A DNA stretch of 64,000 nucleotides from Gongronella butleri. Taxonomy: Eukaryota; Mucoromycota; Mucoromycetes; Mucorales; Cunninghamellaceae. Positions within the stretch are counted from its first letter, which is position 1, and every line of letters begins with the position of its first letter. The notes beneath the pieces were generated by a model. That model was not told the origin of the DNA and made no database searches. It saw only the letters and a program-made list of their open reading frames with translations. The stretch covers positions 1 through 64,000 of the forward strand of contig JAIWZP010000051.1 in the NCBI GenBank assembly GCA_025201375.1, given 5' to 3'. Of the stretch, positions 24,112 to 63,694 are shown in pieces. Both the position numbers and the translations under genes were made by a program.

Positions 24112-24254
24112 CTACGGTGCATACGTAGAAAAAAAAAAGGTCTGACGGGAAGCAACCAAAACAATTGATTTTTTATCGAGAGTTTTGTGGTTTGTGTACC
24201 TTTTTGATGTTACGATACGTAGACCAACTTCTCGCTGGGCTTACCGGTATGAAT

Positions 24255-25380
24255 CATACATTTCAAAGCGCGTTTCTGTGGTGTCGCAGCGTGCTGCAAA
24301 AAAAAGCTCTGTCCATTCATCTTTCAAACACCAAAAAGCGCGTTTGTTAGACTTTACCGGCCTGATTGTGCCTCCAGAAATGTTTTTACAGCCTACCTGC
24401 CCGCCAACGAAAATTACGTCACGGCACGTACGGTACAACAGCAGCCAGATCATGCTCGCCACGGGTCGACCCGATTTTTTTTTTAGCCTGCAATTCCAAA
24501 AACCTCCAATTTGCCCTAAATTTTGCATTCATCTTGCCATCATCTGCATGGTTGACCCCGCTCAAAGACAGCTGCATCGCATCATGATTCAGCGCAAAAT
24601 TTGCAGCAAAAAAGCTGTTAAACCCCCTACGTACTGTAAGCGCTCCTCCAACGACCACCTTTGAAAAATTCAGGGGTCACTCAGGGGTCACACATTTCAA
24701 TCTCAGAAATGCCAAATTTGGGAAATTTCGAATTCCGAGTGATCAATGCATCCCAAACAGGTATCTCCGACAATTTGCTATTGGCAGACAAAATGACAGG
24801 TCGCCACAACTTTAAGAAAAATGCCCAAGGAGTGACGCATGAATGGCGATCGACTGAGAAAATTGTCTACTTTGGGCAAGATTTTTTTGCAAAAATTTAA
24901 GGTTTAACCCTTCCAAATTAAGATGATGGATTGCGTGGAATTTTTATTTTTATTTTTTACTTTATTTTATTTTTTATTTTTTCATACTGTTTACTGTATT
25001 TTTGTGCGCTGCTGAGGAGTGGGCAGCAGCAGCACCCCACCAGTAGCACCTCGCAGCAGCCTGGTCTTTGGTGAAAACGTGAAATGACCGATGCAAAATG
25101 TTTAACCCCAGCTAGCGCGCTGCAACCTGCAAGTCATCTCATTATTAGTTTACTGTATGATACAGTATGATAGAGCACCGTATTGTCGAGAAAATCGCGA
25201 TTAAAGATTTTGAATTTTAATAAAATAAAGTCTAAAAGTGAATTTTCTCTGCGAGTTTTAGTTATCCATGGATGAAGCAACTGGTCTCATTCGAAATACT
25301 GTAGAGATTCAATACTGTAGGTGCTTTCGACATGTTATTGTTGTATCATCATACATACTGTATGATACTGTAAAAGCGCC
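24255..25380. repeat. Dispersed repeat family R1, copy A
   Basis: About 1.1 kb, alignable by eye with copies at 34755-37220 and 61560-62930. Shared anchors include GTGCCTCCAGAAAT, CTGCATGGT.GACCCCGCTCAAA, AATTCAGGGGTCAC, GTGATCAATGCATCCCAAAC and CTGCAAGTCATC. Carries several TACTGTA words absent from the matching places in the other copies, for example 25297-25303 and 25313-25319. No terminal inverted repeats or coding frame common to all copies, so the element class is unknown. Confidence 0.75.
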
Positions 25381-25548
25381 GTCCTACAAAAGTTTCTGGA
25401 CTCTGGAGGCAACAAGCCAACAACAAGTCAACAACGAAAGGATTATCGTATTATGGTGTTTATTACGGTATGTACGGTAAGGCTGGATTTGCAAAAATCT
25501 GCATTTTGGGGTTTGAGAATTGAGATTCTTTACAACAAGACTACAGTA
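24632..25548. repeat. TACTGTA/TACAGTA cluster 1
   Basis: Nine exact copies by my count: starts at 24632, 24992, 25151, 25161, 25297, 25313, 25356, 25366 and 25542. Two near copies (TACGGTA) lie near 25445-25475. Each equals TA + CTG or CAG + TA, the three-base footprint expected after excision of a Tc1/mariner element with CAG ends. Confidence 0.8.
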
Positions 25549-25752
25549 CAACGTATTCAAGTTGGATGAGTGATTTCCTGGGCAACATACGTACGAGCGA
25601 CGGCAGATGAGAGCGTAAAAATATACCCTGCCAAAAAAGGGGGTCGGCGGGCATTGGAATTTGGCTGGTCAAAGCGGGGTTGTCAAACATTCGACCTTTT
25701 TTGTTCTTCAATTTCTTTGTTCCTCTTTCATCTCTCTCTGTTCACGATTGCT

Positions 25753-28700
25753 ATGCCACCCCAAGCCCTCTTCCGTTCGGAAGAGATGTCCCTGATTCAG
25801 ATGTATATCCCTATGGAAGTTGCACAACCGTGTATTGCCGCCATGGGGGATATGGGCATGGTGCAATTTCGAGATGTAAGGCAACGTTTCTTCTCCCCAT
25901 TCGCTTTTCCAGGGTCGATTTGCGACGCTCCCTTGCTTCAAGTCTGACAAACGCGTATTTTCTTCTTCTTCTTCTTTTTTTTTTTTTTTGCTAGCTGAAC
26001 CCCGAGGTGAATGCCTTTCAGCGCTCGTTTGTCAGCGAAATACGGCGTCTCGACGAAATGGAGCGCCAGTGCCGTGAGTTCTAGCCCTAAATTGGGTGAC
26101 ACGCGCCTAATTGACGACTCATACCTCTTTTGTCCTGGTTTTTTTTTTTATTTGCAGGGTACTTTCAACAGCAATTGCACCGTGCAGACATGGCATACCG
26201 CCCTGTCGTTAGCACGTCTGCGCGCGCACGCTCTGCATTAGAGATTGACAATTTGCAAGAAGTGCTGCGCGAGCATGAGACGCGCCTGGTGGAATTGACA
26301 GGCTCGTACGAGCAATTGCAGAATCGCTACCTCGAACTCACAGAGCTTCGCCACGTGCTGCGTGAGACGGCCGCCTTTTTTGAAGAGGTACAATGAAGCA
26401 TCGACGCGTCAAAATTGTTTGCTCACGACTCTCTTTGTGATTTTTTTCAGACCGAAGCAGCGCAAGCGCCGTTCCCCACGGACCAATTGGTGGACGACGC
26501 GGTGCCATTGCTCGACGACGACGAGGAGAACATGCAGTTTGAGATGAATCATCTGTCTGTTGGATTTGTGACGGGCGTCGTTGATCGTGCGAGTCGACGC
26601 ACGTTGGAGCGCGTCCTGTGGCGATCGCTGCGCGGCAACCTGTACATGAACGTGTCCGAAATTGACGAGCCCATCATTGACCATGACGATCAAGTCGACA
26701 AGGACGTCTTTGCCGTCTTTGCACACGGTACAGAGATTCTCAACAAGATCAGACGTATCTCAGACAGTCTCGGTGCCAAGCTGTACCCCGTGGACGCGTC
26801 CGAGGAGAAGCGTCGCGACCAATTGCTTGAAGTCACCTCGCGCATCGAAGATCTCAACAATGTACGACGAATCCCACCAGCGGAAATTGGCATTTGACTG
26901 ATTATTTTTTCTTTTTATTCGATTTTGTAGGTGCTTTCAACGACGAATCAGACGCGTCGCGCGGAGTTGATTGTCATTGCCGAGCACCTTAACTCTTGGT
27001 TGACCATCACCCGCAAAGAAAAAGCCATCTACCACACCATGAACCTGTTCAATTACGATGCTGGACGCAAGTGCCTGATCGCCGAGGGCTGGTGCCCCTC
27101 GTATGATATACCCTTGATTCAGCAGACATTGAAGGATGCGACGGTATATAAACTGGAGTCTTTGGCGGTCTTGCAAAAAAAGCCAGGGTTTGCTGATTGC
27201 GCGCGTCCTTTTTTTTTTCTTTTCTTTTTCTTTTTTTCTTTTTTATTCTAGGACGCGTCTGGGACGAGCCTGTCCGCCATTGTAACCGAGTTGCGCACCA
27301 ACAAGAAACCACCGACATACCAGCGCACGAACAAATTCACCGAATCATTCCAGGGCATCATCGACGCGTACGGCTATGCGCGCTACCGCGAGGTCAATCC
27401 TGGCATTTTCACTATCATTTCGTTCCCATTTCTCTTTGCTGTCATGTTTGGCGACATTGGGCACGGCTTTCTCATGTTCCTTGCTGGCCTGTACATGGTC
27501 TGGAACGAGCGCAAACTGTCTGCAAACACGGGCGAGGTAAGGGCTTGCAAAAAAAAAAAAAAGAAATGGAATATGAAGCGACTGACGCGTGTTTCTCCTC
27601 TTTTCTTTTCCCACTCAGATCTTTAACATGTTCTTTGGTGGCCGCTACATGATTCTGATGATGGGCGCTTTTTCAATCTTCACCGGCTTTATTTACAATG
27701 ACATCTTTTCGTTGTCGTTGTCCATATTTCAATCCGGGTTTGATTGGCCCACGAGCGTCAACAGCACGACCCAGGCGGTCCAAGGCGTACCCAATGGCCA
27801 TACGTACTTTTTGGGTCTCGATCCAGTAAGAAGAATTGCTATTGATGTGCCCCCGTCAGCCAAACTCATCTTTTTTTTTTTATTTTTGCTCGCGCGCTAG
27901 GCATGGCACGGCTCTGAGAACTATCTGCTGTTTACCAATCCTTACAAGATGAAGCAAGCGATCATTATTGGCGTGATTCACGTAAGAAAAAAAAAGACAC
28001 GTGTAGCCGCCAATGACTCGCGTTTTGCTTACTTTTTATCATTTTTGCTAGATGACCTTTGCCATCTGCTTGCAAGTGGTCAATCACATTCAATTCAAGA
28101 ACAAGATGTTCATTTGGCTCGAATTTCTGCCGCAATTCTTGTTCATGGAGAGCATCTTTGGCTATTTGGTCTTTTGCATCTTGTACAAGTGGAGTGTCGA
28201 CTGGTACGCGCGCGATGCCAGCGGCGAGCTCATCCGCAATGGCCCACCTAGTCTGTTGAACATGCTCATTTATATGTTCCTGTCACCCGGCACGATCCTC
28301 CCGGGCCAGCAGCTGTATAGTGGCCAGGTAAAGAAAGAGAAAAGAGAAAGAAAAAAAGAAGAAATGGCTGAAATGACTTTTTATTTCTTGATCCAGGCGT
28401 TTGTCCAAGTGGTGTTGTTGCTCATTGCAGTCGTGTGCGTTCCGTGGATGTGGTTTGCCAAGCCGTACTATCTCAAAAAGCTGCATGCATCGCATCAATA
28501 CACGTCCATTGCGGATGACGATCATTTTGCCGATGATCCCGAGCTGCAAGCCGAGGAAGATGACGAGATGGACGTCGATGTGCACGTTAGCAACCCTCAC
28601 GCACCCACGGGCGCCATTGACGACCCAGATGAAGAAGAGTTTGACTTTGGCGAAGAAATGATCCACCAGACAATCCACACGATTGAATTCTGCCTGAATT

Positions 28701-29113
28701 GCATCTCCAACACGGCATCATACCTCCGTCTCTGGGCTCTGTCTCTAGCCCACGCGCGTAAGTAAATTGTGGATGCCTCGTCATATGTCAATTTCTCACG
28801 CACGAGCCTTTTTTTTTTTTTTTTTTTTTACCATGCAGAGCTATCGAGTGTGCTTTGGGACATGACGCTCAAGAATTTGTTCAATTACTCGGGCATTTTG
28901 GGCGCCATTGGGCTCGTTGTCGGCTTTGCGGCGTGGTTTATGTTGACGTGTTTCATCTTGATCGGCATGGAAGGTCTTTCCGCCTTTTTACACACACTGC
29001 GTCTTCATTGGGTGGAATTTGACAGCAAATTCTATGCAGCGGATGGCTATCCGTTCCAGCCGTTTTCGTTTGCGGCCGTCCTGGCCATGGAAGACGACGC
29101 CCCACCCTCCTAG
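25753..29113 (+). CDS. V-type proton ATPase subunit a
   Basis: Largest membrane subunit of the V0 sector, 846 aa in eleven exons (25753-25875, 25995-26073, 26158-26387, 26451-26861, 26931-27143, 27252-27536, 27619-27825, 27901-27981, 28052-28327, 28397-28757, 28839-29113), sum exactly in frame. The N-terminal cytosolic half starts with [20 protein letters not shown] and includes coiled-coil arms. The C-terminal half has eight helices, including [36 protein letters not shown] with the essential Arg of the proton path, and the ending [22 protein letters not shown]. An acidic loop lies at 28500-28660. The family has Vph1 (vacuole) and Stv1 (Golgi) isoforms; I cannot assign which. Confidence 0.97.
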
Positions 29114-29771
29114 ACTCTTTTTTTTTTCTTTCTTGTAAATCCATTTAAATGCCTAGATTTCTTTTTGTTCCACAATGGCCCCCATCCACCCACCATCTCG
29201 CCCCATACATGACAAATATTGTTGAGCAAAGGATGGTGCGGAACAGGTTTCCAAAACACACGGGCTGCGGCGCCGGAGTGCAAGTTTGGATGTGGCAATG
29301 GTGATTTTGTCGTGTCACCGTCCAATGGCATGCCTATTTTTACATTGATAGGGCCGGATTTGGCAATGATTGGAAAGTGGGAGCGGGCCGGCGTTCCTGC
29401 AGCTTGTTCGAAAATGCACGGCTTTGTGTGTAATGTTGCACACACCGGGAAAAGGGGTGGCGATAGAGGGGCACGAGGTGATCTGTGCCATCAAAAACAC
29501 GCCCGATCGCGTCAGCTCGGATAAATCAGCGGGATGCACGATGAGATGATTCAGCATCAAGATGACCAAGCTAAGAAACTAGACGTTTTCGTTACTTTTT
29601 TATTTTTTTACGCCATGCGAGCATGAAAAGATGCAAACAGAATGTATTTTTATTGAATGGGGGAAACGATTGGGTGCGATAATGCAAGTGGGGTGGATAT
29701 GTACACATGGTGGGGTTATCAAGAATCAGAAAGGGGGGAAAAAAGCGAGGGGAAATCAAGAAAAGCCGGGT
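29114..29771. other. Convergent intergenic spacer, 658 bp
   Basis: 3' ends of V-ATPase subunit a and the CBM21 gene. Nothing else recognised. Confidence 0.5.
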
Positions 29772-31085
29772 CTAGATGTTGATTGAGACTGGGGATGGCG
29801 ATTCTGCAACGGGAAGGTTGGACGACGGCGAGCCATAGAAGCAATACTTGGCGATAAGGTCATTGTAGGACGCGGTGGCCATTTGAGTCGAGATATAGTC
29901 ACTGACGGGTGATGCAGGCGCCGATTTCGTCTCTGTAGGCTTGGGCGCCTTGGTTGGAACAGGAATTGCCATGGATTTGGTGGCGGCTGCGGTTGAAACA
30001 CCCTTTGGTGCGGCGGCTGCCTTGCTTGGAGCGACGACGGCGCTGTTGGTGCCATGAATGTTCACTTCTTGCTTTGCCTGTTGGAAAGATTGGCTAAAAT
30101 CGTAGCGCGAGGAGCGACGGGTGCGTGGCGGCTGCAATGGGGGCAATTGGAGCGAGTCAGTCTCGATCTGGGCAGCGGGCTCCTTGATTTGTTTCTTGCT
30201 TTGCTCAATTTTGTCTTCCACAATTTGGATTTGATAATTGCGGCTGTTGTTGTTGTCCCAATATTCGACCCAGCGGTTGTTCTCGTCGAGGACCGAGTAC
30301 TTGACGGCGAGATCCAAGGTGGCGCGGACGTGGCCATGATCGGCCAGCGGCTGCTTTGCGTCAATGGCGTAGCGCAAGGGCGAGGAAGGAGGTGATGGCG
30401 TCAAATCGATTTCGAATGCAAAGACGTCGAGCGCGTCGCGGCCATATTCATAGTGAGCGTCGATGTTCTTGACGGTCTGCCAGCCATCCAAGGTATAGTG
30501 GACATTGACATGTTTTTCAAAGCCAAGATTGCGGACAAGGACTTGACCGCGTACACACATGCCGCCGTCCAGCAGGCGCAAAGACCGTTTCAGGCGCACA
30601 TGGTCTTGTTGCTGCTGGAGGAAAGGGTATCGAATGGTGGGCCACTGGGAATAGACGACGCTGAAGGAAGGCTGCTGTGTGGATTGGAAACGAAGCACCT
30701 CACTTGGCGAATGCGTGCCATCAAAGACGCACACTTGCTCAAGATGCAATGGGTCGAATTTGACCGATTTTTGAGAGCGTGGTGGCGAGTGGCTGTTGGG
30801 TGAAACAGGCGCCGACACCGTTTGACGCAAGGACGACTTTAACTGGTGCACACGTTGGCTAGGCTGTGTTTGTTGCAGCTTTTGCACAAGCGTCGGGTCC
30901 AATGTGATATGCATAGCACGTCGTTCGTCTAGGTCCACGTCCTTGTCTTGTGGCTGCTGCTGCTGCTGCTGCTGTGGCTGCTGTGGCTGCTGCTCAGCAA
31001 AGGCCGCCGGTTTGTTTAGCTGGACTTGCCGGGTCCAAGTTGAATGGCCATATCGAGTGCTTCGAGGAAACACGGTGAAGGACAT
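29772..31085 (-). CDS. Glycogen-targeting PP1 regulatory subunit (CBM21)
   Basis: 437 aa, single exon, a notable contrast to its intron-rich neighbours. Starts MSFTVFPRSTRYG. A polyglutamine stretch (residues about 32-45) is followed by KSVKFDP, an RVxF-type docking motif for protein phosphatase 1. A CBM21 starch/glycogen-binding module follows: VLVRNLGFEKHVNVHYTLDGW, a DVFAFEIDLTP segment, ALKYSV-like LAVKYSVLDENNRWVEYWDNNNSRNYQI. This is the layout of Gac1 and the mammalian PPP1R3 family, which recruit PP1 to glycogen to activate glycogen synthase. The C-terminus is Ala/Pro/Ser-rich and low in complexity. Confidence 0.92.
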   Translation of the reverse strand: MSFTVFPRSTRYGHSTWTRQVQLNKPAAFAEQQPQQPQQQQQQQPQDKDVDLDERRAMHITLDPTLVQKLQQTQPSQRVHQLKSSLRQTVSAPVSPNSHSPPRSQKSVKFDPLHLEQVCVFDGTHSPSEVLRFQSTQQPSFSVVYSQWPTIRYPFLQQQQDHVRLKRSLRLLDGGMCVRGQVLVRNLGFEKHVNVHYTLDGWQTVKNIDAHYEYGRDALDVFAFEIDLTPSPPSSPLRYAIDAKQPLADHGHVRATLDLAVKYSVLDENNRWVEYWDNNNSRNYQIQIVEDKIEQSKKQIKEPAAQIETDSLQLPPLQPPRTRRSSRYDFSQSFQQAKQEVNIHGTNSAVVAPSKAAAAPKGVSTAAATKSMAIPVPTKAPKPTETKSAPASPVSDYISTQMATASYNDLIAKYCFYGSPSSNLPVAESPSPVSINI

Positions 31086-31494
31086 GAGGCAAAGGGGAAA
31101 AATGGAGTGTGTGTGTGTTGTACGTGAATTAGTGTGAGAGGAAAAAAAAAAAAAAGAGAGAAAAAAAAGAAAAAAAAATTGGGTGCCTTTTTAAAAGATA
31201 ACGTCCTCGTTTTGATGGGGCAAGATCTGCGCGCCAAAAAAGTGTGTGAGTGTGTAGAAAAAGAGAAACAGAGCGGAGTCTAGACCCAATGTTTTTCCCC
31301 CAGTCTCTCCACTTTTGGCCAAATCATCAGATGTTTTGCCAAACACGTCCATTGGACCTATCAACCGATCATCGCCCATCGCCGTGTCCATTCCGTGTCA
31401 CACAATATTTTTTTTTCATTCGTTGAAAAGGGAGACTAGGGGTGGATTGCAAGGGGGGGGCAAGAAGGGGGATCAAGGGAGAATCATCTATGAA
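31086..31494. other. Intergenic, 409 bp
   Basis: Between the CBM21 gene start and the epsin stop, both minus strand. Presumed promoter of the CBM21 gene, with a GT/CA-rich block at 31100-31135 and purine runs. Confidence 0.5.
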
Positions 31495-31854
31495 TCACAA
31501 AAAGCTGGAGGGCGTCGTCAATGGTGCAAAAGGACTGTTCGATTGGAATGGATTCTGCGCCTTTGGATTGGTCGCAGGACTTGTCGAGATGCCGAATGCC
31601 TAATGAATTTTTTTAAAGTTTAGATCTCCCCCTCGATAAACACTTTGATAGTGCACCCTTTTCAAACTTACCTCATCAAACTCGGATCGGTGTTGATGGC
31701 TATCTGCCGCTTGGGCCACCATGTTCGTATCTTCTTTGATAGAATTGGCAAACCCGGTCCCCCTGATTATCCAAATAGGCAAACAACAAGACATGAGAAC
31801 CAAAAGGCCATCGATTTCACGTCAACCTTCTTTTTCTGTCAACTCTAATCCCAA

Positions 31855-31890
<36 letters not shown>

Positions 31891-33987: not shown

Positions 33988-35431
33988 CCTTTGCAACAGT
34001 AAAGAAAAAAAAAATGAACAAAAAAGAGCAGCAACAAAAAGGAAAGAGGAACGAGGGGCATTTTTTCTTTTTTTGGCTGCGGCCAATGTGCCTAGGCTCC
34101 GACGTCCACCTATCAAACGTCCGCCTCCTTGACACTAGTGTGTCGCTCATGGACAAACCTCACAGGAAGACAATCTCGCATTTTACGCGTGTACACTTCT
34201 TTTATCTGGTTGTTTGATGTCTCGTGGTGGTGTTGTGCCAAAGCCATGCCCCTTTAGCAGCCAGCAAAAAGGCAGAATGAGCCTGTCCGTCACCTTCAGG
34301 CACATCGGCGGCGCGTAAAAAAAAAAAGGGACGGCATTTTCCTTTTTAAAAATAAAAATGCTGCATCAGTCGATCACTTGCCCTTTGCGTGCATGCCTTT
34401 ACATATGATATTCAGAAGGCACGGCGAAATGCTGCATCATAGGCGCTCGAACCATGAGTTGTATTGGCCATCATTGGTGCTTCATGATGCACATCTGTGA
34501 GCCGACACCTATGATATCATACTCTATGATATCAAATCAAGTACAATATGATATGTTACTGTAATTCAAGCGTGCAGCAGTGTTGTGTGCTACAGTAATA
34601 CAGTAAAATCTTTCTTTTAAAAAGAACAGCCAACGAGCAATTGAGAAAACGCACCAAATAAAACACGATTTTCATCCGTTTTGGATTATTGCACACAAAT
34701 AAAGGGGTTTTCCGTTCATGTTTTGAACTCGTTGGACAGAAACTGACGCGTTGCTATCATTTCAATGCCAGAAGCATCGCGCTATATTGAACAAAAACTT
34801 ACACATTTATCTTTTAAACACCAAAGAGCGTGTTTTTTTTGGATTTTGCCGGCCTGCTGTGCCTCCAGAAATTTTTTTACAGCCTATCTGCTCGCAGGTG
34901 AAAGTTGCGTCACGGCTTAAACTACAGCCCAGTGCTCAAAACGGACCCGCTTGACTTTTTTTGGACTCGAAAATAACAAAAACTTGCTATTTGTACTATT
35001 TTGCATTCATCTAGTCATCTGCATGGTCGACCCCGCTCAAATGTACTGCATCGCATTCAGCGCAAAAATTGCAACAAAAACTTAAACTCCCAAAGCGTTA
35101 CGACCATGTTTTAAAAATTCAGGGGTCACACATTTAAATCCCAAAAACGGACAATTTCGAACTCCGAGTGATCAATGCATCCCAAACAGGTATCTCCGAT
35201 AATTTGCTATTGGCAGACAAAATGACAAGTCGCCCCGAAGTAAGAAAAATGGCCAAAGAGTGACGCATGAACGGCGATTGACTGAGAAAATTGCCTATTT
35301 TGGGCAGGATTTTTTTCAAAAATTAAGGTTTGACAATTCCAAATTAAGGTGGTGGATTGCATGGATTTTTTTATTTTTTTATTTTGCACATTTTTATGCG
35401 CTAATACAGTACTGTACAGTACTGTACAGTA
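33988..35431. other. Intergenic with repeat R1 left half
   Basis: Epsin promoter side (33988-34370), then an ATGATAT-rich patch at 34505-34555, then R1 copy B from about 34755. TACTGTA/TACAGTA words start at 34557, 34591 and 34599. Confidence 0.55.
35405..35431. repeat. Chain of five overlapping TACWGTA words
   Basis: Five words overlap by two bases each (starts 35405, 35410, 35415, 35420, 35425), alternating CAG and CTG cores. The last TA is the left target base pair of the transposon. A chain like this is what serial insertion and excision at a growing run of TA sites would produce; 10-base slippage is the alternative. Confidence 0.85.
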
Positions 35432-35461
35432 CAGTGCCCGGACAAAAAAAAGTTTCGCTCT
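35432..35461 (+). repeat. Left terminal inverted repeat
   Basis: 30 bases, exact reverse complement of 36736-36765. First three bases are CAG, which sets the expected excision footprint. Confidence 0.95.
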
Positions 35462-35610
35462 AACTTTAATTTTTTACGCGTTATTTCTTTTTTACGTGCT
35501 TCTCATCGGCAACAGTAACTAGATCTCTCAAAATTCATACAATGATCCTTTAATATCATACATACATAATAATTCATACAAAAAAGAGGGCGGGGTTGGG
35601 CAACTGGGGA

Positions 35611-36636
35611 TCACCACCGGGTGGGTGTGCCCTTGTTCTTGATGACTGCCTTCATCCTTCTGGGCATCGACTCGATGAGCCTGTTCCAGTCGTTGGGCTC
35701 AAACTCGTTCCAGACCTCCTTTAGAACCTCTCGAAACTCCCCCAACTCCATTCCCTCGTGAAATCGATCTTGAACGCGCGCCTTCATCTTTTTCCAAAGA
35801 TTTTCGATTGGATTGAGGTCCGGTGAGCTCGCGGGCCAATCCATCTTCTTAATCTTCTTTTTAGCAATCCATTGCTTAGACACGTTTGCACGGTGGATCA
35901 TCGCGCCATCTTCCATGAGTATGATGGTCCTTTTGCGCCCAAAAAACTTCTTCAAAGGTCCCTCATACACGACACGCACGTAGTCTTCCGCAGTCGACCT
36001 TGTGCTGCGGTCATTGGGCCCGTGTTTCTCGAATAGCGCGAGCTCCGTCTTTTTTCCATGCTGGATACCACCCCAAACCATTTGCGACGTGCGCCCGCTC
36101 TTAAACGTGGGGGCAAGAGAGTCCTGGTGGTCTGCTTCGTTAGCTGTGCGCCAGACACGGACGCGGCGAGAGTTCTTGCCGATTTCGAACGAGGACTCAT
36201 CGGTAAATAGCACTTTTTTCCACTCGTCTACCGTCCACTTTGCGTGTCTCCTAGCAAAAGCAAGTCGCTTTGCCGCCTGTGCAGTCGAAACGAAGGGTTT
36301 TCTCTTGGCAATACGCGAGTGTATGCCCATTTCATGCAGACGACGTCGAATGGTACGACTCGACACACTCATGTCAGACATGTCGCGAATCTGGTCAAGT
36401 GTTGCACGTCGCTCGTTGACTACAAGGCGTCGCAAGCGTCGCAGGTCCGCGTCTGAGAGCTTTTGTGGGCGCCCTGACCCCTCTTGGCGAGCGTAGTGGC
36501 CTCGTTCTGTACATCGCCTAACTGTAGATCTAACAGATTGTTCAGACACGCCGAATTGGCGAGCCAATTCCGCAGTCGTACAACCGTTGTTTCGAAGTGC
36601 AACGAGTTGTGCCTTTTGCGTCGTTGAGAGGACCAT
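35611..36636 (-). CDS. Tc1-like transposase (DD34E)
   Basis: 341 aa starting MVLSTTQKAQLVALRNNG; this ATG gives the family N-terminus, and the frame upstream is a poly-F read through an A-rich leader. First helix-turn-helix: LARQFGVSEQSVRSTV. GRPR-like linker: GSGRPQKL. Second HTH: ATLDQIRDM, then VSSRTIRRRLHEMGI. Catalytic core: VLFTDESSFE (first Asp), WGGIQ, IILMEDGAMIHRA (second Asp) and SSPDLNPIENLWKKMK (Glu). I count 34 residues between the second Asp and the Glu, the DD34E signature. The second Asp lies in EDGAMIH rather than the usual QDNAPCH. No stop or frameshift. Confidence 0.95.
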   Translation of the reverse strand: MVLSTTQKAQLVALRNNGCTTAELARQFGVSEQSVRSTVRRCTERGHYARQEGSGRPQKLSDADLRRLRRLVVNERRATLDQIRDMSDMSVSSRTIRRRLHEMGIHSRIAKRKPFVSTAQAAKRLAFARRHAKWTVDEWKKVLFTDESSFEIGKNSRRVRVWRTANEADHQDSLAPTFKSGRTSQMVWGGIQHGKKTELALFEKHGPNDRSTRSTAEDYVRVVYEGPLKKFFGRKRTIILMEDGAMIHRANVSKQWIAKKKIKKMDWPASSPDLNPIENLWKKMKARVQDRFHEGMELGEFREVLKEVWNEFEPNDWNRLIESMPRRMKAVIKNKGTPTRW

Positions 36637-36735
36637 ATTTTCACAAAAAAAAAAAAAAGAAAAGACCCAGCGAGCGACACCTGGCACCCAGTTTTATAGA
36701 TTTGAGCAAATGGCTGCGGACACTGAAAATTATGC

Positions 36736-36765
36736 AGAGCGAAACTTTTTTTTGTCCGGGCACTG
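36736..36765 (-). repeat. Right terminal inverted repeat
   Basis: 30 bases, exact reverse complement of the left repeat. The element ends in CTG and is followed by TA, which begins another TACAGTA word. Confidence 0.95.
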
Positions 36766-38275
36766 TACAGTAAGTAGAACAAGGTTCTGTTGGCTGGGCA
36801 GCAACCTGGTCGAGGTGAAAAAATGACCAATGCAAAAAGTTAAAATCTAAGCTAGCAGACGCTGCAAGTCATCCCATTAGATGCTTTACCCCACTGTTTG
36901 TTATCAAAACTGCAATAAAAATTGGGAGTTGATTAGACCGTTGCCGAGAAAATCGCGATCAAAGATTTTGATGTAAAAGTGAATTTTCTCTGCAAGTTTT
37001 GGCCATCCATCTGTATGATAAAATTGGTCTCATTCAATAGCTAGAGATTCAATAGTGATGCTTTCGACACGTTACAGTAAAAGCATCCTTGATTGTTGTC
37101 TCAGTTTTCGAGAAAAGTGCGTTCGAAAATTACAGTAATCCAAAGTTTGATCGACTTTTGCGAGCGTACAGTACAAAGTTCGTCCATCTGGCGAGCAAAC
37201 AATCTACTGTAAAAATGACACCCGAGTGTTGTGTCTCTTGCGATTAGTTCCAATTTCACCTATTCACCATGATCCTTGATCCACAAGATATTTCGAGACC
37301 CCGCGGTGCCAAATTTGTGAAAATAACGGCGTTTTGAATTCATCTGCAAAAGGACCAAGCTGATCTCTAATTTTAAGATTTTGTAGGAAATGAACGCCCG
37401 AAAAAATAGTAATGAGTAATCTAATGCATAGGTTTGACGAGGCGACACAACCATTTGTAGCCTTTAAGACTAGATTTGTGAAAATCAGGCAAAGATTGCT
37501 AAAATTATTGTAGACAACAGCGCAGCCTAATCACCCGCTGGTTTTTAACGTTTCTTTATATCATACAGTAAATTGATGTGCCAAAAAATTATCTGATGGC
37601 TACGGTATCATACTGTGACAACTCGACGAGGGTCAACTCTAACGCCTTAAAACGGGTTTCATGAGAAAGGTGTGACCGGATGTAGATGATGCCAGTGATC
37701 TATAAGTGTATAAGAAATAAAAGAGTTCTGGCAAAACATATCATACGCGACACCCGACACGCCCACACGCGAGACAAAAATGAGCTCTTTTTCATGCGAG
37801 TCGGAAATGTCGGATGAACGATCATGACTTGCTCTGCAGGAGAGCAGGACTGCAGCCATGCATGATTGTTCTTGCCCCCCGCCCCATTCATCAAATTCAT
37901 GCGCCTGATGCATTCCGAGCTCTTGGATATATTGGGATGCATCTGCAGCGCGTGTCTGTAGTCGCGTCTCTCAATGCAAAACTCACGCAGAAAAAAAAAA
38001 TCTAAAACTGATCATTTTTCGTCATCAACCAGCAGATGGATCATACTCATTTTTGCATTTTCCGTGGGGTTTTCATGCCATTTTTCTTGTATGCAAGTTT
38101 GGCGTCATTCTGGGAACGATTTTCGATTCGGATGGTCAAATGCCGTCCATCCGGTCGCGTGGTCCACGTGACCTGCTGTGCCTGGATTGCGATTCAAACA
38201 CCGGTCTTCTTGAAACTTCTTTTAGACTCTTTCGGGTCGCTTGTCTTCCTGTTACTTTCTTTTTTTTTGACAACC
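36766..38275. other. Repeat R1 right half and CHIP upstream region
   Basis: R1 copy B continues to about 37220. TACWGTA words start at 36766, 37073, 37131, 37167, 37205 and 37564. From about 37650 to the CHIP start, ordinary intergenic sequence with no gene recognised. Confidence 0.55.
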
Positions 38276-39675: not shown

Positions 39676-39943
39676 GAGCCTTGTTTGATGCCGTCTTTAT
39701 CTTTCCCCTCTAAAACCTTGTATTTGTACCTCGATTGCATGCCATTCTTCTCATCTCAGCCCTGCTACAGTAATTTCCCCCCTTCCAAGAAGCGCCCCGC
39801 CAATGCCAAATAAAAAAAAATAAATAATTTACGTATTCTTACAACGAATAGAAGTGAGGAGCAAGCAAAATCGAGAGAGGGGAAGGTTGGCCACGAGATC
39901 AATTCATCTTTCTTTGTTGATGAATGATGAGGCGGGAGAGAGC
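39676..39943. other. Convergent spacer, CHIP / coronin
   Basis: 268 bases between two stop codons. Holds one TACAGTA word at 39766-39772 outside the three main clusters. Confidence 0.5.
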
Positions 39944-49000: not shown

Positions 49001-49107
49001 GAGTCGACGCTTCTCTCTTTTCTTATATTGTTCGCAAGGGCAATATAAAGGCGCGTCTTGACAATAACGCTTGTATTTATTTCATTTTGTCAATTTTCAG
49101 CTCTATT
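46061..49107. other. Intergenic, 3.0 kb
   Basis: Upstream of both the bHLH gene (minus) and the nickel permease (plus), so a long divergent control region. Purine-rich block at 46100-46215 next to the bHLH start and an A run at 46541-46567. No coding frame with recognisable motifs. No TACWGTA words noticed. Confidence 0.55.
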
Positions 49108-49414
49108 ATGTCGCAAGGAAAAATTCAGCAGCTTGCTCTCAGGCACCTTTCGGAGCACTCGTTCGTGTACAAGATCTTTTTCGGCCCTGATCCCCGGCGG
49201 ATCCGGCCAAAAGTGCTTGTTCTCCTCGCTTTTCTTTCTTTGGTCAACGTCATTGTATGGGTCGTGGCCATAATCGTGTATCGCCCTTATCCGTCCATGG
49301 TCGGTACTGGTGCCTTGGCCTACACGCTTGGGTTGCGGCATGCCGTTGATGCAGGTAAAATGGGAGAAATCCGGGGAAATGCATGCGCCCCGACATGTCG
49401 GAATCATAATTTCT

Positions 49415-49478
<64 letters not shown>

Positions 49479-55134: not shown

Positions 55135-56128
55135 ATGTTACACGTCCAAGAATCGATACCCCATAGCAACAGCCTGATCATCTCGCAGTTCCTCGCATCG
55201 GCGCAAAACGCCGCATCCGTCACGATCCCTGCCAGCAGCGTCCCCGCATCGCTGCAAATGGTCCAGCCGCAATCCTCGCGCTCAACCAAGGTCATTGAGC
55301 AGCTGCAGGAGAAATGGGAGAGGATACAAAAGGAAGTCGCCACAACGCGATCCCATGTAAATCCAAAAAAAAAAAAAAACAAAAAAAAAAAAACAAACAT
55401 TTCATCTCATTTGGCTTTTTTTTTTTTGACCTGAAAAGGTTGAAAGCACGAAGCAGGCCAAAGAGCAATTTGAGCGGCAGAATGCGTATTTTATCGATTC
55501 GAACCGGCAGCATCGGCACCAAATCCAAGATTTGATGAGTATGTTGGAAACCAAGGAAACGACGCTGCAAAGCACGAAGCGTACGTCGATTAATATGGAA
55601 TCGCAGGTCAAGACGCTCAAGGACGAGGCGATGCAGTCGCGGCAGCAATTGGAAGCGCTGAGGCGTCAAGAGCAGACGCTGGGCAAGGAAAGGGACAGGG
55701 CTGTTGCGAAAAAGGAGCAATGGGAGCAGCACCACCACGTGCTCGAAATGTCGCTTACGCACCTTGAGACGCGGCTGACGCGTGAGGTTGGATCGCTCCG
55801 CGACCAATTGGCGCTGGTGCAGCAACGCGTCCAGGCCATGACGCGTACGCACGATCAGCTAATCCGCATGGCCGTCTCAACATTGAAATTCCAGTCGGCA
55901 GAGCGTACAACGCACTACCAAACCTTGTCTGTCGCCTATGAGCAGTTGCAGGATCACCAGCAGCATTGGCTCCGCCAAATCCAGGGCCGCATTATGGACC
56001 TGTCTGTCGCCATTCGCCAATCGGGCTCCACCACCGACGAATTCCACTTGGCCTTCAATCGCTGCCGCGGTGAGGTCCACGGCCTCATCAGCAAAATAAA
56101 GGCCTACACTGCCATCATGGTCGAATGA
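55135..56128 (+). CDS. Coiled-coil protein (She3-like at best)
   Basis: 303 aa in two exons (55135-55356, 55439-56128), in frame. Starts MLHVQESIPHSNSL. The N-terminal 55 residues are Ser/Ala/Gln-rich; from SSRSTKVIEQLQEKWERIQK onward it is nearly all charged heptad-type helix (QAKEQFERQNAYFIDSN, MLETKETTLQSTKR, LEALRRQEQTLGKERDRA) to a short C-terminal domain (FNRCRGEVHGLISKIKAYTA). The STKVIEQLQ start of the helix recalls the RNA-transport adaptor She3 of fungi. That resemblance is from memory and weak. No enzymatic motif, signal or membrane segment. Confidence 0.75.
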
Positions 56129-56957
56129 ACAAAAAACAAGAAAAGAAAAAAAAGCCAATTGGACACTCCCTTTTCCCCCAGCTTCAGCAAAAAAAAAATC
56201 TCCCCTTTTCACCTTCCGTCCACAAAAGCACCCCTTTGTCCTTTTTTTTGGCTTTTTTTCGCCCCAACCCTCTCGCTCTCCTTTTTAATTCCTCTCGCAA
56301 AGATGTGACGTAATAAACGATACCATGCTGTTTATATTTGTGACTTTCAACATAAAAGAAAGAGCGAAGGTGGGACATCCCGGAACAGCCGGGTTCTGCA
56401 AATTCTTTGGTGCCGTTGCGCTGGTCGCCGACCCTGGGATCTGATAAGATGCACAAGCTGGGTTTCAATCACAGGTGTCACCAAAGGCACGCAATCCCGC
56501 TCTAAATGCGGGCCCCCATGCGCCGTTCACCCAATTTCCAATGGCCACACAAACATCTCATCTTTGGCAAAGTCTCTGCTGATCACTTTTTTGCGCTTTG
56601 CGTGGCGCGCCAAGCCTGTGCGCGCGTGCGGGCCCAGCCACAAGATGAAGCAAATGCTCTTCTTTTTCATCTCGGAATAAAAAAGCATCTCTTTTCTGCC
56701 TTGATCTTCTCTACTTTCTTCTCTTTGATTAATCTTGACACACTAGCACGTGAGCTGTAGCGTTGATCGGTGGATGCTGCTTAGATCAAGTGACACAAGG
56801 CATTGGATCTGATACCGCTATTTTATAATTTTCGCTGGTCGCCCTTTTTTTTTTTTTTTTGTTGCGACCTTCCCTTTTCTCTTTTTCTCTTTTTCCGCCT
56901 CTTTTCGTTCCTTCTTTTTCTTTCCTTTAAAAAATTTGCCCCCGTGATTCTTTGTAG
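56129..56957. other. Intergenic, 829 bp
   Basis: Between two plus-strand genes. Long pyrimidine-rich stretch at 56840-56935 leading to TTTGTAG directly before the next ATG, compatible with a 5' UTR intron. Confidence 0.5.
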
Positions 56958-58471
56958 ATGGCCGATGCATCTCCAAGCAGTGGGTTTGATACAGCATTGC
57001 CATGGTACGATGTCTTGGTCGCGGCGACATTCATCGTGGTCGCAGGTAAGATGCAATTGGAGGCAAAGGCGGCGAAAAGGGCGCCTTGCGCGGCACGTTT
57101 TTGCTTATTTTTTTTTTTTTTTTTTTGAAAATCCATCCTAGCATCCATCAGCTTCAGTCTCGGGCTGAAATTAGAAAGTCAGCTCATTGTTGCAAGTATC
57201 CGGTGCGTGGTCCAGCTCACGTTGATGGTAGGTAGCGGATGGCACTACTTGCGTAGTCGCGTGGCCAAACCAGGATATTGCGCAACATCCCAACATTTTT
57301 TTTTTTCGTCACCAGGGCTTGCTTCTCGAAGATGTTTTTCGAATCAACAATATGTGGCTCGTGCTATTTGTGACGAGTAAGTCGCGGCGGGCATGGATGA
57401 TTCTACAAAGCGTCCGACGCGCGCGACATCTCATGCTTTTGTTTTCTTTTTTTTTTGACAAAATCAGTGGTTTTTATCTTCCTCGGGTCTTATGAAATTG
57501 TGTACAATCGCACAAGGCACACGTTCCGGGGCATTGTGAGTCGGGTGTGCCTTAAAAATGGTGGCGGGAAAGAGCGCATGCATTAAAAATCGAGAAAGGT
57601 TGTCGGCGGCTTTATTGACTGGGGCACCCTCTTTTTTTTTTCGCTAGTTCCCTCGGATGTTTAGCCTTTTGGTGTTTTCCACAATGTTGATTGGCCTGCT
57701 CGGCATTGTCCTTGCGCTGCGCATCACCCCTTTTTGGACCCCTACCAAATTCATCCCCATTGTTGGCATGCTGCTCGGTAATTCCATGGCCAGCGTCACC
57801 ATGGCGACAGACGTGTGCCTTGGTCAAGTCAAGTAAGCATCAACACGCCCGAATCAAGATGGAAGAAGACAAAGAAAGAAAGAAAGAATGGCTGATGATG
57901 ATTTTATTGTGGTTTTTGTGATTTTGCTAGTCAGCACGCGCCCATGCTGGACACGTACCTTGCCATGGGAGCTTCTCGCTTCGAGGCGACGCGTCCGTTG
58001 GCGGTCGAGACGATTCGCATGGCCCTGTTGCCAATCATTGCACAGACGAGCGTCATGGGCCTCGTCAACATTCCAGGCACCATGGTTGGGCTCTTGCTCT
58101 CTGGTGCCGACGTCCACGACTCTGTCATCTATCAGCAGGCACTCATGTTCATGATCGTCGCCAGCTGCACCTTGGGCTCCATCCTGTCCGTTGTGGTATG
58201 TGATAAAAAAAAAAAAGAGGAAGAGAGGGTCGCGCACAACTCTCATCCTTTTTTTTTCTTTTTATTTTCTCGCCACATGTAGACGTGCATGCGCGTCCTT
58301 GTGGACCATCGTCACCGGCTGCAGTGCAACCAAATCAAGCCCAATGAGTCCATTATCATTGTCACACACGTGAAAAACTGGATTAAAGAGTGGCGACAGC
58401 GCACTTGGCGCGTCACCAAGCGATATACCAAGCTCGTGCAGCATGACATTGAGTTGTCTGCCGTGCCATAA
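56958..58471 (+). CDS. UPF0014 membrane permease (FetB/ALS3-like)
   Basis: 313 aa in seven exons (56958-57045, 57142-57227, 57316-57376, 57468-57535, 57648-57832, 57931-58195, 58283-58471), sum in frame. Conserved family blocks: SISFSLGLKLESQLIVASIR with VVQLTLM (helix 2-3), EIVYNRTRHTFRGI, IPIVGMLLGNSMASVTMA, LDTYLAMGASRFEATRP, IRMALLPIIAQTSVMG and LVNIPGTMVGLLLSGADV. Bacterial members (FetB/YbbM) pair with an ATPase in iron export; plant ALS3/STAR2 act in aluminium tolerance. No partner ATPase lies in this window. The C-terminal 60 residues are a basic cytoplasmic extension. TTTGTAG abuts the ATG. Confidence 0.93.
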
Positions 58472-60120
58472 AAAGGTCCATTACATTTGTACAATAAAAA
58501 ATTCATTCCCCTCTCTCACTTTTTATTATTGATTGCAATTTCCGTCCCTTTTGACCCTTATCAATGACAACATCCTTCAAAGGCTGTGCATGGTTCCGTT
58601 CAAACACGATACTGACAGCACCACGCGATTCTGAGCAATGTTGATACGACAGTGAAGATTTTGCACAAGCAGCTGCGCAATATCATAATTTTCATTTAAA
58701 ATACTCGAATTGCTCGGGAAGCAGCAAGGAATCTAGCGTTGCTCTGGGCAAGCAAATGATAATGCAACTTTGCGGCTCTCGAATGGCATTGGTTTTATTC
58801 CAGACTTCCAGCATAAGACGCGAGTAAAATTACGGAAACGCGATAAAACATGCATTTCGACATTTTTTGAAAATCGACCTCAAGGCCTATTGGCTCATTC
58901 TTGCACTGTGTTAAAGAGGTTGCAACAGACTTTCATTTGAGCTCACCCTTGCGGCACAACTATCATTAGATGGCAAGCAGCAGATAGAAAGAAAAAATAG
59001 GTCAAAATCCCTGGATGACACCCTGGCCAGCTCTCGAAAATCAAAAAATATCTATGGATTCCCACAAAACTTGGAGTGAAGCAAGGTCGCAATGTCCGCA
59101 ACAATGATGACTATGGCGCGACCGAGCAATCGTTATATTGGTTGGCGAGAAAATCGATAAAATGCCACTAAAAACGCCGTATTTTCAATCCAATGCCATG
59201 AGATAGACAATGAGCTTTTAACGGCTTGAAACGAAAATATCTCGCGCGTATGGATTGTGCGCACAAGTAAATGCCGGGGATGGCAAAAAGCGCGATTTGC
59301 ACGTGAAGGGCAACGCGTCGAAACGGCGTTTTTTAAACGTGAACTTCGACGCGTCGATACTCTAGATTTTACAGAATCACCGCACAAGCAATGCACACAA
59401 ATAGACATTTGGACTATTCTCTCTGGTAAAATGCCAACTGATCGGCTCTAGAGAGTTTAGCCGTCGAAGGACGGGCAGTCGAAACAAAGTTCTCCAGCTC
59501 ACTGAACCGCGATTTTTTCAAAATCTGCGTGAAAGAAACTCGTAAAATTTGCTTCATGGTTCATTACCCTTTGACGCGCACTTTCCCTCTGTGTTTGAGG
59601 ATGACCAGAGGAATTGAGTTTTGTTTTGCAAAAACCGGCGTGCTCGCACACAAATTTTCAAACAGGGATAGAATTGCAAATCACACGTCCTGAGACACGA
59701 AGAGCGACACTAATGAAAGCCTGCCTCCTATTCTTTCCGCTGTAACGAGTAGCGCGTGTAATTTCGGCGCCACTGTACGAATACGCGTCAAGTGCACGTA
59801 AAAATTGAAAATTTTGCTAGACGATTTTCACAAAATGGCGGCTTCACGGACAGCAGAACACTCTCATGTTCACTGCTTAATGCCGAGTGTCACAGCACCG
59901 CAAAGAATGTTATTGCAGGCATGGAAAAATCAAATTCCGACTTTTGCACTCACTTTCATTCGTTTTACTTTGATGACTCAACAACAATTAGCCATTTTCA
60001 ATCCGCGAATTTGCCCACGCTTCGGAGCTTTATTCGAGGGTCATTCAGCCATCGTTATTGGCCAGAAAATTTGAATTTGAGAAGATCCCTGTTTAACTAA
60101 TCAGTCGTGAGATCAAAAAT
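58472..60120. other. Intergenic, 1.65 kb
   Basis: AATAAA at 58492-58497 is a likely polyadenylation signal of the UPF0014 gene. The rest is low in recognisable features, with several ACGCGTC-type words (59310-59350) as in the R2 regions. No gene recognised. Confidence 0.5.
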
Positions 60121-60194
60121 GCCCTCTTAGCTCAGTTGGTTAGAGCGTGGTGCTAATAACGCCAAGGTCAGAGGTTCGACCCCTCTAGGGGGCA
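60121..60194 (+). tRNA. tRNA-Ile (anticodon AAT)
   Basis: 74-base cloverleaf without intron. Acceptor stem GCCCTCT pairs with AGGGGGC, discriminator A. D arm GCTC/GAGC, anticodon stem TGGTG/CGCCA with loop CTAATAA, T arm AGAGG/CCTCT with loop TTCGACC. A box TAGCTCAGTTGG and B box GGTTCGACCCC are intact. Anticodon AAT (inosine-modified in eukaryotes) decodes isoleucine. Confidence 0.97.
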
Positions 60195-60198
60195 TGTC

Positions 60199-60204
60199 TT
60201 TTTT
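60199..60204 (+). terminator. RNA polymerase III terminator
   Basis: Run of six T five bases after the tRNA 3' end. Confidence 0.85.
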
Positions 60205-60654
60205 GCTTTTTGAGATTCGAAAACGGAGAATCAACTTGCATTTTCACAGTTTTTTTGTTTTTTGGTCATTTTGCGCTTCCCGACAAGAATTTCTCTCTGT
60301 TTTTTTCTTTTTTTTTTTTTTGCCCAACGCTGCCATGGATTCCTGCTCTGTTTGCCGCGCTATGATTACGTTCTTGATAAAAAGCAGCTCAATCTTACAA
60401 AAAAAAAAAAATGTCGCTCTTCTTGTTCTCATCATTTTTACGAGGATGCCCTGTCTCAAAAAAATAAAGTTGGCGACGTCTCCTTTGATAATGGCGCGAT
60501 TCTGCCCTGCTTGTTTTGCATGAATCCTCCATTTTTTTTTTTTTTTTTTTGTGGCTCTGGACGAGATTCGCCAAAGTGCATACTGTAGTCCCTCCTTTTT
60601 CCTCTTGTAAAGAATAGTCGCGCGCCTCACCAGCTAGGCCATTTATTTTTACGA

Positions 60655-60663
60655 TATATAAAA
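60655..60663 (+). promoter_or_regulatory. TATA box of the small secreted protein gene
   Basis: TATATAAAA, 31 bases before the ATG at 60694. If transcription starts 25-30 bases downstream of the TATA, the leader is only a few bases long and would skip an out-of-frame ATG at 60687. Confidence 0.6.
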
Positions 60664-60693
60664 CCTAGCGTGAGCTGCAAACAATCATGGAAT

Positions 60694-60942
60694 ATGAAAA
60701 AAATAAAATTTCTTACAATTACTGGCGCACTTTTTGCAACAACCCAATATTTACTGGTTAAAGGCGCTGAACCTTGTTGCTGCAATGTAGTCGTTAGCGG
60801 GACAGATGACATGAGCCACGGAAATCAATGCACCTTTGACGGCATAGACTGTCTTGATTTCATGCAATACATTGCAACATGTGAGACGTATAATGGCTTT
60901 TCTAAAACTAGCGTCAATTGTACACTTGCTACCGGTGGATAA
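60694..60942 (+). CDS. Small cysteine-rich secreted protein
   Basis: 82 aa, single exon. Signal peptide MKKIKFLTITGALFATTQYL with positive n-region, hydrophobic core and a probable cut near VKGA. The mature part of about 57 residues has seven cysteines: a CCC triplet just after the cut, then single Cys in NQC, IDC, ATC and NC contexts. There is one N-glycosylation sequon (NCT). No family recognised. Size, signal peptide and Cys density resemble fungal secreted effector-like or surface proteins. A TATA box sits 31 bases upstream and an out-of-frame ATG at 60687. It lies 500 bases downstream of tRNA-Ile and next to the R1/TACWGTA block. Confidence 0.65.
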   Translation: MKKIKFLTITGALFATTQYLLVKGAEPCCCNVVVSGTDDMSHGNQCTFDGIDCLDFMQYIATCETYNGFSKTSVNCTLATGG

Positions 60943-61651
60943 AAAATGCACCCAAGCATCGTTCGTTCATCATGAACTATAGTATTTGGAAAGCCAAGTC
61001 AATGGGCTAACCTGTGACCTTCATGCCTCATCAAAATAATGACTTTTTTGGTACTTATGCGCAATTTTTATAATGTATATATGATTGTAAGAAAGTGAAG
61101 TTCATCTTAGTGATTTGGTGCAAGACGGGATCGAAGACGAAATGGTTATGATGTGGACTCTCATCCAAATGCTTGATCTTTTCGATTGGCATCGGGCCAT
61201 TCATGCAGCTTGGTGGTCAACACGCTATGCTTCTGTATCGTTGAATTTTCTCGCGTGAAGCTTGAAAGTAAAACTGGCATTATCATAACACTGGAAAAGG
61301 TCTGTCCGGTTTTGTATCATACTGTAGGCGGGGTTTTCCCTACAGTACCTACTGTGGATTCCTACGTACAAATGCAGCCATATTCAGAGGCTGTTTGTAC
61401 TGTAGCTCCTTTTTGTAGGTGCCTGGCTGTCACAACGATCAGTTTTTTAGCCAGAACGCGGCTGCTAAATTTCTTTGTAGCCTTCTTTGCAGGTACGAAT
61501 CGCGACAAATGCTGATGTTGATTTTTCATTGAGTGGTTCATTGATCCATGCGATTCACACTTTTTTTTGAAGCGCTTTTGGTGCTTTTTTATTACAGTAG
61601 TGATGCGCTGCTCACTTAAAGACGTACTGTAGACGTTGTAATGCTGTATCA

Positions 61652-61714
61652 TACTGTACAGTACAGTACAGTACTACAGATTTACAGTACACAAAATAAT
61701 TACAGTATACTGTA
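61652..61714. repeat. TACTGTA/TACAGTA chain, cluster 3
   Basis: Overlapping chain of four words (starts 61652, 61657, 61662, 61667), then words at 61683, 61701 and 61708. Densest single stretch after the transposon's own left flank. Confidence 0.85.
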
Positions 61715-62534
61715 CTAGAGCGCGTCACACTGCCTAAAAAACACAGACATTTACTTTTTAAAACGGCAAGGGCGCAACGCGTATTATGTACAGTATTTTT
61801 CATATTTGCCGGCGTGCTGTGCCTCCAGAAATTTTTTTACAACCAACTCGCCTGCCGACGAAAAATGCGTCATGGCGTAAACTACCTATGGCCCAGTGTT
61901 CAGGACGGACCCTCCCGATTTTTTTTTGTACTCGAAAATGCCAAAAGCCCAAAACCTCTTATTTGTTTATTATGCATTCATCTGTCCATCTGCATGGTCG
62001 ACCCCGCTCAAAAATAGCCGCATCAAATTCAGCGCACATTTTGCAACAAAAAAGCTTTAACCCCCAAAGCGCTACGACCACTTTTGAAAAATTCAGGGGT
62101 CACACATTTCAATCTCAGAAAATGCCAAATTTGGGAAATTTCGAACTCCGAGTGATCAATGCATCCCAAACAGGTAACTCCGACAATTTGTTACTGTATT
62201 TGCAGACAAAATGTCCGGTCGCCCCAACTTAAGAAAATGTCCAAAGAGTGACGCATGAACGGCGATCGACTGGGAAAAGTGCCTGCTTTGGTCAAGATTT
62301 TTTTTCGCCAATTCATGTTTGAGAAATATCAAAACGGAAATTTGGATTGCACGTGCGCTGCTGAAGTGCTGATGAGTGTCTGCAGCAGGCTGCTGGCGAA
62401 GTGATTGACCGATGCAAAAAGCTCAAAGCCTCAAACCCAAGCTACAGTAGCTAACGCGCTGCAAGTCATCCCAAGATTAGATGCTTTGACTCCCGCCCAT
62501 ATATTTTGTGAGTAAACCTGCAATACAGATGTAT

Positions 62535-62561
62535 TACTGTACCTACAGTACTACTACTGTA
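62535..62561. repeat. TACWGTA cluster inserted in R1 copy C
   Basis: Three words (62535, 62544, 62555) lie in about 40 extra bases between CTGCAATA and AAAATT, which are adjacent in copy B near 36915. Confidence 0.75.
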
Positions 62562-63694
62562 AAAATTATAAGTTGATTAGGCCGTTGTCGAGCAAATGCT
62601 CATTTGAGAAATTGTCCAAAAATAAACCGTTTTTTTCTGTCAGTTTTGATCATCGGATTGTGGTGATACAGCAGCAATCAGTAGGCTCATATCATAAGCA
62701 AGACAGTAACATGAAGAAATGTGAAGTATGATATTGTAGTGATGAATCAGCAGCTGCTTTTGACAAGTTACGTAAAAGCGCCGCGAAAAACCATCTTTTT
62801 CTTTGTCGAGAAAATTGAGTTTAAACATGATGGATAAAGCAAATATTCAAGCATGCAAAGGTTGTTCATCGGGTGTGCAAACAATTGAAAAATGACTCCT
62901 TTACTGTAATACAGTACCTACTGTAGAATCAAGCACCGTTCGAGGCAAGAGCCCCGTTTTGTCCTTTCAGGTGGCGAGGACTCCTGTATTTGTACTGTAT
63001 GCACAATCATGTAGCCCATCCATGCTCTCTTTTCTTCCTAATTTCTCGGCATTTGGTGATTCAATCACTTTCATACTGTATTTTAACACCCATTACAGAC
63101 AGTTTTACAGAGATACTGTACTCCCGCACTTTGGATCACTCTCAAATGGATAGATAAAAAACAAGGGCACGGCACATGTAAAATTATTTATTATTTATAT
63201 TTCCCAGCCAAAGTCTCATTTTACCCTACAGCCTCACCTTTTTTTCGTGATCTATCATAGACATGCCATCGATTTCATATTTTCAGAGATCATGTTACTG
63301 TAGATGTATTCTTTCATCACTTACTGTAATATCTAAAAATTTCCTTGAAAATTCAGCTCTGTAGACGCGAAACTTCAATTCTCGAAACGGCCATTATAAG
63401 GGAAACCGATGCACCGTATCATCATCCCTTCTTGCGCCGAATTTGAGGCGGATCTGCTACAATAGCTCCATCTCACGCAGGGCCAAAATTGGGTGTAATT
63501 GAAGCCTTACGCTCTCAATTCACGATTTTTTTGTTCTATCGGTGTGTCTGGCGGTGCCTGGCAGTGAAACGGCCTGAGAGATCGGAATGATGCCAAGATA
63601 TCATCGTACTGTATCAAGCCGCACGATAAGCCAAAAGCGCCCATTGAAGGAGATCGACGCACAAATCTTACGATTAGGCTGATGTCAAGCTTGT

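Follow-up and report, generated by a model that had tools for sequence, protein, structure and literature searches.

The words TACAGTA and TACTGTA (together TACWGTA) clustered in this DNA can be read with good confidence as excision footprints of CAG-ended Tc1/mariner-type transposons, which are probably also preferred targets of CAGTG-ended families. The footprint part of this reading, considered by itself, is held with high confidence, and the further part, that insertion favours sites of the form TACWGTACWGTA, appears reasonably likely.

Probable footprint words and occupied sites

Exact TACWGTA words number 53 in the window (the whole 64-kb stretch analysed), whereas 100 dinucleotide shuffles gave 1.37 on average and 6 at most. 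The original prediction had placed nine, 14 and 27 words in three blocks and three words elsewhere (18079, 39766 and 60581), and a recount gave identical figures. In the window the words are concentrated in blocks that lie outside recognised genes (Table 1). Within the three blocks, which total 6.3 kb, the CAG class accounted for 50 of the 80 TA-NNN-TA words, followed by TCA (TATCATA/TATGATA) with 12 and CAA with 4; no other TANNNTA word was therefore equally common, and besides CAG only TCA was clearly raised. A DNA sample of 190 kb, consisting of the window, repeat loci and element flanks and array-rich through being chosen by repeats and elements, contained 570 words of the CAG class, the next two classes numbering 221 and 62.

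Table 1. Positions of the principal features within the window
Feature	Position	Strand	Description
Block 1	24632..25548		nine TACWGTA words, within and beside a dispersed-repeat copy
Block 2	34557..37570		fourteen TACWGTA words around the resident element, within a second dispersed-repeat copy
Five TACWG units	35405..35431		centres mixed A,T,A,T,A; last unit reaches the left TA of the resident element
Resident Tc1 element	35432..36765	-	1334 bp, CAGTG...CACTG, TA at 35430-35431 and 36766-36767
Transposase gene	35611..36636	-	341 aa; HTH_Tnp_Tc3_2 and DDE_3 above cut-off
TACAGTA directly right of the resident element	36766..36772		first TA is the target duplication
Block 3	61320..63613		twenty-seven TACWGTA words, within and beside a third dispersed-repeat copy
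Four consecutive TACWG units	61652..61673		centres T,A,A,A; a TATCA unit at 61647 precedes them
TACTGTA	62192..62198		alternate state in other repeat copies: TA (14 matches), CA (2 matches)

The genome-wide count that had been proposed was carried out on the plus strand of the 33.0-Mb assembly (110 contigs) and returned 16,213 TACWGTA words versus 6,355 for the pattern read backwards, the chance level being about 700 by our own scaling up of the window shuffle mean. The record of past jumps that had been foreseen is supported, its size being one of thousands and not hundreds. The host belongs to the Mucorales by protein similarity, as its mitochondrial L16 protein has its best named hits in Cunninghamella (74-76% identity) and Absidia (70%). 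TATSATA (TATCATA/TATGATA) formed a second raised class, with 9,529 words genome-wide versus 1,031 in the reversed control; examples in the window lie at 25156-25162 and 61647-61653. TACSGTA ranked third in the sampled DNA (62 words) and occurred 1,999 times genome-wide versus 9,577 for its reversed control, so that by this control there is no genome-wide excess of it. The raised TATSATA class, the sharing of a dispersed repeat by the blocks and the presence of elements inside footprints are all absent from the original prediction.

The resident element of Block 2 begins with CAG and ends with CTG between two TA dinucleotides, as had been claimed for it. It combines the TA duplication with terminal inverted repeats of about 30 bp (35432-35461 and 36736-36765) and a DDE/D transposase with a paired helix-turn-helix (HTH), the features by which Tc1/mariner elements are recognised, and its triad was assigned by motif as DD34E (D146, D243 and E278; the last two are separated by 34 residues). 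The genome contains nine copies that differ by 0-3 bases over the 1334 bp and all keep the 341-aa frame intact, and three further copies are 86% identical. Non-autonomous copies of about 1005 bp with long (418-bp) inverted repeats number at least 40 (40 of 200 candidates were scored) and are 98-100% identical to their query. The CAG-ended source presupposed by the original prediction is accordingly present in the genome, as nine autonomous and 40 long-repeat copies, and the CAG-ended families look recently mobile from the similarity of their copies. A target duplication longer than TA was considered and rejected, as the W to the left and the W to the right of an autonomous copy agreed, by eye, in only some cases, as would happen by chance.

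One dispersed repeat, whose conserved core measures about 300 bp and for which a first look gave 888 candidates in the genome (40 scored), occupies 24250-25600, 34780-37100 and 61780-62800 of the window. The three blocks hold copies of this repeat and are therefore not independent pieces of DNA. This repeat allowed the same site to be viewed with and without a word. Thirty-two copies were extracted, three of them from the window, and for each XYNNNXY word with matched 12-bp flanks the state of the other copies was scored. Other copies carried bare TA at 16 of 34 TACWGTA sites (about four of the 16 sitting in T-rich runs), at two of five TATSATA sites and at one of two TACGGTA sites, and at none of the 22 sites occupied by TA-NNN-TA words of any class other than TACWG, TACSG or TATSA. 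Words ending in TT were also often lost, these being located in T-rich runs, and words ending in GT, AC, AT or CT gave few losses, some of which were shifted readings of the same TACWG units.

An indel survey with no preselected word, based on pairwise alignments with left-normalised gaps and with low-complexity flanks removed, yielded 32 insertion alleles of five bases, a number that includes alternative placements of a single event. Exact TA-NNN-TA insertions made up 15 of them, namely TACAG (6), TACTG (6), TACCG (1), TACGG (1) and TATCA (1), and no further class occurred among the 15. Sleeping Beauty, which is likewise CAG-ended, leaves TACAGTA or TACTGTA at the donor site, as described in passages of PMC3432063 and PMC4378557, and the comparison of paralogous repeat copies suggests the same exchange of TA for TAC(A/T)GTA in this genome. 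The alternation of TA and TACWGTA at the same repeat site, the 15 surveyed insertions, the mixed W of the arrays and the intact CAG-ended copies all support the footprint interpretation with which the original prediction began; its attribution to a CAG-ended source stands, that to a single element does not, since more than one family contributes.

CAGTG-ended elements among the words

A search of the sampled DNA for CAGTG-type ends gave 57 distinct ends, and 30 elements were examined on both sides. TA directly preceded 56 of the 57 ends; 50 abutted TACWGTA, four CWGTA and two only TA (TACGGTA and GATTGTA), and one lacked TA. At least one TACWG unit was present on each side of 23 of the 30 elements, and the remaining seven comprised four with CACTGTA on one side and one each with TACGGTA, GATTGTA and no TA. 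A further locus (L049), flanked by GACTGTA and, at the opposite end, by CTATA, was kept outside both counts, its left terminus being different. Away from element ends only 73 of 8039 TAs (0.9%) have CWG on both sides, and as this background comes from an array-rich sample the contrast with 23 of 30 should be conservative. Scars therefore probably serve as preferred landing sites. None of the 30 CAGTG-ended copies was flanked by plain TA at both ends; these families alone therefore do not explain the approximately 13,700 single footprints.

The total number of units around a two-sided element was two, three, four and five or more in 8, 6, 4 and 5 cases, the numbers expected from CWG-TA-CWG positions in arrays being 7.8, 6.4, 6.9 and 1.8. 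The fit was moderate (p 0.08) with arrays beside elements removed (73 of 8039 TAs), and p was 0.63 when they were included (97 of 8306 TAs).

Three junctions of the form CACTG-TA-CAGTG (at loci L039, L081 and L082) join back-to-back elements through one shared TA, as if the end of one element had served as half-site for the next. At L081 (G000:C23) and L082 (G000:C55) different CAGTG-ended elements lie back to back, and the two junctions are identical over 42 bp; they may go back to one event, and the pair may be a composite mobilised as a whole.

The preference would disappear if the CWGTA beside the CAGTG ends belonged to the element, its true ends being CWGTACAGTG..., and if insertion took place at plain TA without regard to footprints. 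A single mechanism would then cover both the single footprints at plain TA and the flanking units, and TA is indeed found outside the flanking unit at 50 of the 57 ends. Copies that differ internally by 0-3 bases, however, have a different W at the same end, which places the unit outside the element. Furthermore, where elements lie back to back (L039, L081 and L082, the last two maybe one event) a single TA joins them and CWGTA is absent, CACTGTA or GATTGTA replaces TACWGTA in three examined copies, and 15 of the 23 two-sided elements exceed the minimum of two units. Longer ends are consequently regarded as unlikely.

It is also improbable that elements insert at plain TA and then repeatedly excise and reinsert in place, building units on both sides with no sequence preference, even though local hopping is known for Sleeping Beauty (described in part of PMC7827188). 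Only 6.3% of single footprints have gained a second unit, and under equal cycling few residents should then have units on both sides, yet 23 of 30 do; the TA shared with the CTG end of a neighbour likewise suggests a sequence requirement. Beyond two units the chance of one more (r) is about 0.43, and such array statistics agree with a preference for double footprints.

Structure of the arrays

Runs of one, two and three consecutive units numbered 16,213, 1,613 and 695 genome-wide, from which 14,600 arrays were derived, 13,682 of them single words. The centre base was balanced, as equal repair to A or T would have it (TACTG 295 and TACAG 275 in the 190-kb sample), and adjacent W pairs were AA 16, TT 16, AT 14 and TA 13. 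Triples of uniform centre (AAA or TTT) made up 130 of 695, below the 25% expected of random W (p 9e-5). Units of the TACWG, TATSA and TACSG types share one 5-bp register within arrays, which is the expectation if TA-targeting elements of different families visit one place. The units are not simply independent, however: neighbours of the TACWG-TATSA kind were commoner than unit frequencies predict (93 vs 65.8), those of the TACWG-TACWG kind being rarer (59 vs 84.8). This imbalance speaks against the footprint reading, as do the failure to find a source element for the raised TATSATA class and the absence of a genome-wide TACSGTA excess.

These figures leave very little room for the proposal that (TACWG)n is a pentanucleotide microsatellite, born and lengthened by replication slippage. 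Homogeneous runs do exist, and slippage may on that account play a small part: locus L076 (432-478; G000:C18) has one TACTG followed by eight homogeneous TACAG units, which looks like a secondary slippage expansion, and overlapping AAA triples occur on C18 and C19. Nevertheless, the tandem units are not generally homogeneous, uniform triples being fewer than random W would give; of the 14,600 arrays 13,682 consist of one word; TACWG, TATSA and TACSG units occur together in arrays; and single insertions are found at plain TA in repeat copies. By its mixed W alone the microsatellite reading is already largely refuted. A host motif, such as a protein-binding or methylation site under selection in intergenic DNA, would suit the clustering of words outside recognised genes, but is highly implausible, since substitution to a motif predicts neither the exact 5-bp insertions at TA in dispersed-repeat copies, nor the 5-bp register with two other word classes, nor the abutment of words on transposon ends.

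Proposed cycle, known systems and other element families

The standard Tc1/mariner reaction, as set out in part of PMC7827188, consists of a cut 3 nt inside the 5' ends that leaves 3-nt 3' overhangs. If the transposase of the present elements likewise cuts 3 nt inside each 5' end, as the known chemistry would have it, two CAG overhangs would pair at all but the central A-A position, from which repair would yield TACAGTA or TACTGTA about equally often. By the same rule each word class is predicted to have its own element with matching three end bases, TATSATA stemming from a TCA- or TGA-ended element.

The arrays could then have arisen in two stages. Generalist CAG-ended elements, for which a pogo-like element, short MITEs or earlier, less choosy relatives are candidates, would enter plain TA and leave single scars. 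Families of the CAGTG and CCGTA types would prefer a TA flanked on each side by CWG and would add a 5-bp unit on leaving, so that arrays and targets would grow together with each visit. The balance of the data leans towards a self-feeding loop of this kind, in which the families would build their own landing sites, double scars would be strongly preferred, and each visit would lengthen the array and multiply the targets; the loop would keep a mobile family in intergenic DNA, and the genome would record roughly 15,000 past excisions.

The footprint words are those of Sleeping Beauty, whose footprints were made experimentally in cultured cells or mice, whereas the present ones belong to a natural genome. 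Beyond what that system offers are the 16,213 words, the 5-bp arrays and the resident elements placed between words. With respect to target choice, PMC7827188 includes a report that bent or mismatched targets are in general more suitable for integration, and a passage of PMC7913693 has ZB, like Sleeping Beauty (SB), preferring AT-rich palindromic sequences. Insertion at TA with preferred surroundings is thus, as far as these passages go, common to Sleeping Beauty, ZB and the elements described here; unlike theirs, the preferred surroundings would here be the scars of excision itself, and the element would thereby create its own targets. Fungal Tc1-like DD34E transposons are alike in TA duplication, CAGTG ends, HTH_Tnp_Tc3_2 and DDE_3 domains and the DD34E triad, a named relative being found in Parasitella parasitica (43% identity), and differ in that an apparent preference for a TA lying between two CWG triplets is seen here. 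The approximately 1-kb non-autonomous copies resemble MITEs with long terminal inverted repeats in sharing terminal bases with an autonomous element; unlike such MITEs they have 418-bp terminal repeats and sit inside footprint arrays. Neither natural genome-scale footprints nor footprint-targeted insertion appeared in the titles and abstract openings searched, which does not prove their absence from print.

Transposon activity is usually gauged by copy number, yet cut-and-paste elements leave no copy at the old site, and only some dozens of CAG-ended copies were seen here versus 16,213 words. In this genome the words could provide a direct count of past excisions, which could also be mapped onto repeats whose age is known and classified by the element's three terminal bases. 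If preferred landing on footprints holds, a transposon would in nature be producing the sites at which it inserts, and such feedback could account for the persistence of an active family, with little harm, in a genome as compact as 33 Mb. The words also serve as a warning that short motifs and seeming microsatellites in intergenic DNA can be scars of excision.

Other families were encountered in the sampled DNA. After TACSGTA had ranked third there, CCG-ended Tc1 elements were found, which are the probable source of that word. One of them (L065:506-2135; G000:C1) is 1630 bp long, with 212-bp inverted repeats, a 339-aa frame and plain TA on both sides, and the family search placed it with the same score in at least nine places; two more (L077 and L078) both lie between TACWGTA words. 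A pogo-like element of the DDE_1 type, about 2.9 kb long and with CAGTAGGTTCTGG ends, is present in two copies (L074:311-3205 and L075; G000:C39 and C52), which are 98% identical and both contain in-frame stops. These ends were examined as a possible source of false words, 37 of 734 sampled words lying within 4 mismatches of 14 and only four of the 37 (two at L019 and two at L074) looking like real ends. Also present were two short MITEs, 226 and 197 bp in length. Plain TA was found at both ends of the L065 element, at three of four pogo-like ends and at three of four ends of the short MITEs, so that the CWG preference seems to belong to particular families.

Inverted-repeat scans, a boundary search and family searches revealed no TCA- or TGA-ended element for TATSATA in the sampled DNA. 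In the family searches the DDE_1 copy with complete ends proved to be CAG-ended, and the Transposase_1 search had no match in the genome and none in its control either. The 336- and 337-aa DDE_3 families showed no clear terminal repeats. A 1387-bp inverted-repeat structure with ends TACACTGACTGACAAAAG (L040:2853-4239) was observed directly beside the array next to a Tc1 copy.
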